Positions 40,672 through 41,376 of a stretch of 64,000 bases of DNA are shown in pieces (the stretch's first letter is position 1; the number at the start of each line of letters is the position of its first letter). The notes under the pieces are model-generated. The model searched no databases. It saw nothing but the letters and a program-made list of their open reading frames with translations, and was not told where the DNA came from. The position numbers were made by a program, and so were the translations under genes. Origin of the DNA: a virus; the IMG/VR virus record IMGVR_UViG_3300028829_002760, positions 1-64,000 of that record; one strand, written 5' to 3'.

Positions 40672-41376
40672 GAGATATTACTTAAAAAGTATCCAGAGAT
40701 TTGTATATAAAAATACTAAATCTAAATAATAGGAGATGTCTTTACTCCTTTCTTTAAAGACAATTAAATCTAATTACTTCATTCTAATATGCTGAATAGA
40801 CCTGACTAGTCTTTAATAAGAATGATTATGTAGTTTACAAATAGTAGGACGTACCGAGAACCTTTAGCAAGTTCTGTAGTCCCTTAGCCTTATATCTTTC
40901 CTATGTTGGTAGCTTAGTGGAAAGATTATATTAATTCCTACGAAGTTCTTTCTTATAGTTTACTAGTAAAGGTTATGCCTGTAGGTGCGTAATCTTTACT
41001 TATATAAATTTATCCTACCTCAATTGTTTAATAGACAATAAATAGCTTGGGGAAGTTAGAGGTAGGATAGATTTTACATTAGAAAGGCTGTAAGTGTTAT
41101 TTAACACATAGTAGTATTTATACTGCAACAGCGTATACCTAAGCAAGTAGATAAACTGCTTAAACTTCTTAAACCAAAATGTCAGTTCCTACTCTTTAAC
41201 TAAAAGAGAGATAAAACATAGATAATTTTTATAACTGTTATTAAGACAAGTCTACTGACCGTCAACAGTTCTGGTTTATTATCCGTGTTTATCATTTAAC
41301 TTGGAGAGAGATGAATAATAGTAGTCTCTCTCCATAATTAAAACGTTATCATTGAAACCAAATAATACATATATAT
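40672..41376 (+). ncRNA. Large highly structured RNA region (about 650 nt)
   Basis: No gene lies here, yet the sequence is packed with stems: 40738-40761 (7 bp), 40847-40882 (4+5 bp), 40894-40926 (8 bp), 40966-40999 (13 bp with two GU, 8-base loop), 41011-41069 (11 bp perfect with a small inner hairpin), 41087-41132 (GCTGT/ACAGC closing two hairpins, a three-way junction), 41171-41277 (the fourth copy of the UCCUA element) and 41303-41333 (8 bp, GGAGAGAG/CTCTCTCC). The length and density recall large ornate phage RNAs such as GOLLD and ROOL, but I see no diagnostic sequence of either. Not a tRNA array: no TpsiC arm is present. Confidence 0.5.
41171..41277 (+). ncRNA. UCCUA RNA element, divergent copy 0
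   Basis: Inner stem GTCAGT (41181-41186)/ACTGAC (41254-41259), loop starting TCCTA, and C-GTC directly after the inner stem, as in the three copies downstream. An outer stem AAACCA/TGGTTT can form, but the internal loop is larger and the loop holds extra hairpins. Probably related; less certain than copies 1-3. Confidence 0.45.

Follow-up and report, generated by a model that had tools for sequence, protein, structure and literature searches.

The 64-kb window analysed here (64,000 nucleotides, the whole stretch of DNA under study) is part of a 109,934-base IMG/VR virus record. As its major capsid protein matches the Pfam family Crass_capsid, the record is assigned to a crAss-like phage; by capsid, the closest named phage is Leptolyngbya phage Lbo-JY46 (28% identity). 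Up to 38.4 kb all genes shown point leftward (virion side), from 38.7 kb on they point rightward (replication side), and the structured locus lies 2 kb into the right-going block. The cumulative GC skew of the window reaches its minimum near the switch in gene direction at 38.4 kb, and this minimum (39000–42000) might mark a replication origin. The repeat GCTAACCC occurs on the plus strand at 38642, 39035, 39524 and 40132, one copy ahead of each of the first right-going genes, and in four copies at matching places in the locus L058; it resembles a promoter or 5′ leader motif of phages.

A leader preceding the element (40040–40443, +) contains the motifs TTTGCTAACCCTTCACT (40129), TTACCACAAGGTT (40227) and TATATAGCTAACT (40410), which are common to other phages and present in 11, 8 and 31 non-redundant module regions, respectively; it likely holds a promoter. 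The following 75-aa ORF (40444–40671, +) shows 80% amino acid identity in the syntenic relative L357 and no match in Pfam or PHROG. From there, a 705-nt stretch without a gene-like ORF (40672–41376) extends to an 80-aa ORF (41377–41619, +). Further downstream, a 596-aa protein is encoded (41954–43744, +), which is without a Pfam or PHROG match and has distant relatives in the Synechococcus phages S-CBWM1 and S-CRM01 and in gut phage Phass-1; used alone as bait it recovered no relatives, used as an alignment one locus.

Fold and conservation of the gene-free stretch

An earlier note, made from the sequence alone, had described positions 40672–41376 as gene-free and unusually structured. Both descriptions were borne out, with a minimum free energy of −168.8 kcal/mol vs −136.2 ± 6.7 kcal/mol in 20 dinucleotide shuffles (z −4.83). 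The reverse strand folds alike (z −4.73), so this test alone cannot pick the strand. In a scan of 319 segments of 300 nt across the 64 kb (mean z −1.2, SD 1.5), 41401–41700 ranked first (−6.9), 41001–41300 second (−6.7) and 41601–41900 sixth (−5.7), while 40601–40900 was unremarkable (−0.8). The structure peak of the 64 kb is thus 41001–41900, and the element extends beyond 41376, where the earlier note had ended it too soon: it pauses at the 80-aa ORF, resumes 3′ of it and ends at about 41907.

The individual stems proposed before are real by the same measure: the GU-wobble stem (40965–41000; z −5.7), a three-way junction with a 16-pair closing stem (41006–41074, +; z −6.8) and an 11-bp hairpin, GGAGAGAGA...UCUCUCUCC (41302–41334, +; z −4.5), at whose place L357 carries GGAGUGUGUC-UUCG-GAUGCACUCC. 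The three-way junction is so far confined to this genome; comparative support is absent, L357 has other sequence at the same place, and a search for its stem pattern in viral contigs gave no match.

L357 originates from a 119-kb record and its gene order is identical to that of the window. The most conserved stretch of the locus, segment A (40730–41003, +; helices 40818–40954, 40847–40882, 40891–40930 and 40965–41000), is 92.3% identical in this nearest syntenic relative, and its first 106 nt reach 99.1%; comparison values are 50–76% for the third positions of codons in neighbouring genes and 68% for the leader. RNAalifold predicted 81 pairs in segment A for the two sequences, none of them broken, with two compensatory and three one-sided changes. 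Ahead of segment A, about 57 nt (40672–40729, +) are missing in L357, a gap in the pairwise alignment with TAGGAGAT direct repeats at its borders and the hairpin AGAUUUGUAU...AUACUAAAUCU. The middle part, 41004–41163, is swapped in L357 for other sequence including a four-armed cloverleaf with a CCA end (3137–3218 of L357, +), which stands in place of the window's middle modules and receives no tRNA call by ARAGORN or Rfam. Hence, one part of the locus is near-frozen whereas its neighbours are exchanged.

The high identity also bears on hidden coding by a spliced, frameshifted or unusual-code gene, an explanation whose probability we regard as negligible and for which no supporting point was found. 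The stretch 40672–41376 contains no long frame, 106 nt are 99% identical although 25–50% of third codon positions in neighbouring genes differ, and the flanking small genes stand alone as separate genes in L058 and L054. Consistently, group I and group II introns had no Rfam match in the window.

Exchangeable modules in other phages

With the neighbour genes as bait, 129 loci were fetched, and common sequence in the gene-free stretches was noticed in four of them. Modules were found in considerably more than 100 other viral contigs, where their order varies and they are nested within each other's helices; of 28 large records tested, among them that of the window, 24 contained a crAss capsid. 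Covariance models R1 (module T), R2 (M3b) and R3 (M1), for which only other phages supplied the sequences, were searched against the window in both orientations and matched exclusively at this locus and on this strand, with E-values from 1e-6 to 5.4e-15, which places the locus in the M1, T and M3b module family. One matched module lies inside 40672–41376 (M3b) and four lie just 3′ of it (three T, one M1). The covariation of M1, T and M3b exceeds that of shuffled and slid controls.

M3b (41079–41164, +; model R2, E 5.6e-11) consists of UAGAAAG, a GCUG/CAGC stem whose loop holds two inserted hairpins, GUAUACCU, and an AAGCA/UGCUU stem with the loop AGUAGAUAAAC; its covariation is 0.453 vs 0.147 in the control. 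Module C (41168–41287, +) follows a layout common to relatives, AAACCA-AAAU-(P2 GUCAG)-UUCCU-(P3 hairpin)-AGAGA-insert-(P2′ CUGAC)-CGUC...-(P1′ UGGUUU). The layout recurs with different helices in L348, L349, L149 and L351 (P2 ACCAG/CUGGU and ACCAC/GUGGU) and the module also exists in L357, amounting to three different P2 helices among the loci sharing C.

Three copies of module T, with the layout P1-AUA-P2-UUCCUAU...P2′-C-P1′, were matched by model R1: copy 1 at 41626–41714 (+; E 1e-6), with an additional hairpin inserted in its loop, copy 2 at 41715–41773 (+; E 3.9e-13) and copy 3 at 41786–41843 (+; E 5.4e-15). T also occurs in L149, L222, L346, L348, L349 and L357, and L149 ends with T-T-M1, the same order as in the window. 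Across ten copies excluding the window, the covariation of T is 0.446 vs 0.177 after shuffling; some of the contributing loci had been located by a pattern in which P2 was fixed. A further T match at 41212 (0.0066), weak and overlapping module C, is not claimed.

The element closes with a minimal form of M1 (41856–41907, +; model R3, E 1.1e-14), a covarying three-way junction with the hairpin CCAAC-UUCCCAAGG-GUUGG and a 3′ GAGGGG; its UCCC and GGGG are predicted possibly to form a pseudoknot. The same loop sits on a re-paired stem in L064, CUCAC-UUCCCAAGG-GUGAG. When the stem letters were left free, a pattern search of IMG/VR yielded 114 stretches, and all five stem bases are paired in 117 of the 122 copies from fetched loci. 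The 3′ half, CUGAGURC..AGGG, was located at most 2.5 kb downstream of 85 of 100 distinct 5′ halves, mostly at 67–224 nt, and together the two make up a three-way junction in which an insert, variable in length (median 85 nt), sits on the third arm; in the close relative L222, a 114-nt insert occupies exactly the position of the window's minimal P3 loop. In 28 distinct sequences, pairing holds for 99.6% of cells vs 83% when shuffled and at most 44% when slid, and both sides change in 11 of 18 pairs (87 cells in total). For this count the halves were joined without the insert, and the search pattern had already set parts of P1 and P3; four pairs of P2 and the outer P3 were unconstrained by the pattern and covary as well. 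U-G pairs are retained in the M1 helices. A candidate H-type pseudoknot module, exemplified by AGGC-UUU-GGUCC-AUAU-GCCU-UAA-GGACC, occurs in L187, L138, L181, L211, L228 and L157, often directly 5′ of M1, and both of its stems vary in step.

Another module, M2 (ACUCUCAUCCAAGCAGG...CAAGGRUUGCAACCUUGUGAGAGU), was not seen in the 64-kb window; it is present in L054, L058, L064, L005 and more than 100 further contigs, with at least 120 matches in the search. Its hairpin loop contains the palindrome UUGCAA, a possible kissing-dimer site.

The exchange of modules could suggest a set of separate small RNAs, for example decoys or tRNA mimics directed against host defence, cut from one precursor and turned over in an arms race. 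Rapid exchange would fit such a set, as would the CCA-ending cloverleaf that replaces the middle part in L357 and the tRNAs nearby at some loci. We nevertheless hold this explanation to be improbable, as nesting in each other's helices is ill-suited to separately processed units and segment A is near-frozen, not fast evolving.

Strand, gene neighbours and known RNA families

The next long downstream gene lies on the module strand in 96 cases and on the other in two for M1 (110 and 0 for M2, 50 and 0 for M3), counts in which the copies are partly non-independent. The upstream gene is on the opposite strand in 7–30% of module cases, which is expected near the head of an operon. The 80-aa gene (41377–41619) belongs to a small helical family linked to the modules: for 22 of the 34 members in the loci, a module in the same orientation follows within 300 nt. 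Its protein model has three helices (pLDDT 72), and the protein is a possible RNA partner.

This arrangement may also be read as a cis-acting leader, the main rival explanation, in which the modules, residing in long untranslated stretches of the right-going operon mRNA, would act on that mRNA instead of as a free RNA and, for the small genes and the gene at 41954, would affect mRNA stability, processing, translation or termination. The modules indeed lie between co-directional genes, the gene downstream shares their strand in nearly every case, and the element is split by the 80-aa gene, with a module 8 nt past its stop codon in some loci. We consider this reading possible but the less likely one: the modules precede many different genes and also sit in a tRNA array, and their freely variable number and order are unlike a fixed regulatory device for one gene.

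Self-cleaving ribozymes were detected by Rfam at 6 of 67 module loci scanned (a raw count), on crAss-like loci: five Hatchet ribozymes (L200 1792–1928, −; L287 2069–2206, −; L329 4453–4619, −; L348 1709–1846, −; L349 460–597, +) and one Pistol ribozyme (L205 1122–1190, +). Where checked, they are upstream of the modules and on the same strand; at these loci of six relatives they are neighbours of the modules, not modules themselves. No self-cleaving ribozyme was found by Rfam in the window's element.

A structured replication origin or recombination site, i.e., an element acting at the DNA level, would agree with the cumulative GC skew being lowest at 39–42 kb. That minimum follows equally from the gene-direction switch at 38.4 kb, and the near-perfect strand bias, retained U-G pairs and ribozyme neighbours favour RNA, making a DNA-level element very unlikely.

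Rfam searches of the window at gathering and lax thresholds returned chance matches only, in line with the earlier note's failure to match a known family. The covariance models of GOLLD and ROOL matched neither the window nor the scanned relatives, those of OLE and HEARO did not match the window, and no sign of the usual OLE or HEARO gene partners was found; like the locus, OLE and HEARO are large, highly structured RNAs, known from bacteria. ARAGORN and Rfam detected no tRNA or tmRNA in the window. In named phages, blastn of the region gave no match, the best hit of the M1 and M2/M3 consensus had an E-value of 0.2 (hits were mostly within annotated genes and judged chance), and M1 and M2 were absent from Lbo-JY46. 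Four M1 matches in about 85,000 prokaryote genomes were rejected, being at about chance level and none having the full five-pair stem with flanking context. The element was not described in the open-licence papers covered by our literature search. It belongs to crAss-like phages; neither Rfam nor, within the sensitivity of these searches, the records of named phages contain it.

A proposed modular RNA in crAss-like phages

Our computations reveal an RNA structure that is conserved, strand-specific and covarying, whose modules are exchanged and which has ribozymes in its neighbourhood. A functional RNA selected at the RNA level is well supported, by the conservation between the window and L357, by covariation, by the strand bias and by the ribozymes nearby, whereas the GU wobbles first invoked are weak evidence on their own. 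Because segment A is conserved, its pairs are kept, modules covary and are exchanged, models match, strands agree and ribozymes are found, we lean towards the reading that the locus yields a transcribed, probably processed, stable structured RNA acting in trans. Transcription would proceed rightward from the leader, near the head of the right-going replication block, and give a long structured non-coding RNA composed of self-contained folded modules, which are gained, lost, swapped and nested between phages while each retains its own conserved loops. A self-cleaving ribozyme in some relatives, and RNases here, would free the RNA from the operon transcript, and it could act either as a stable RNA or within an RNA-protein particle, to which the linked 80-aa protein perhaps contributes. 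Against a trans-acting RNA stand the short gene within the element (unusual for a single RNA and in keeping with a leader), the lack of a ribozyme in the window and the junction 41006–41074 without comparative support.

Our best guess is that the RNA is of the large ornate kind, as the earlier note had proposed; the kind seems right, but a single fixed RNA like GOLLD or ROOL does not agree with exchangeable modules split by a short conserved gene. Both are phage RNAs reported near tRNAs or tRNA islands, and GOLLD has one conserved and one variable part (PMC12286853). Compared by kind only and not by Rfam membership, the element resembles GOLLD in being phage-encoded, gene-free, of comparable size, often near tRNAs and partly conserved, partly variable, and ROOL in being a large structured phage RNA near tRNA islands (PMC12286853). 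One relative, L213 (8702 bases), has a crAss-type M1 embedded in a co-directional tRNA array of 17 or more genes, and this likeness to the GOLLD and ROOL setting (PMC12286853) counts for the trans-acting RNA. In contrast, GOLLD, which occurs in phages and prophages, has a single conserved 3′ architecture and ROOL a fixed one, whereas the modules here are exchanged and nested, and their hosts are crAss-like phages.

Tentatively, crAss-like phages may carry a combinatorial RNA system, with one trans-acting RNA per genome, whose shared modules are exchanged and nested like protein domains and which in some is released by ribozymes. The function of large phage RNAs such as GOLLD and ROOL is an open problem, and the element in crAss-like phages adds to them. 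Its evolution by module exchange makes it possible to delimit the parts and the conserved loops and to test each of them singly. Hatchet and Pistol, in turn, gain a definite genomic setting, which bears on the role of these ribozymes.
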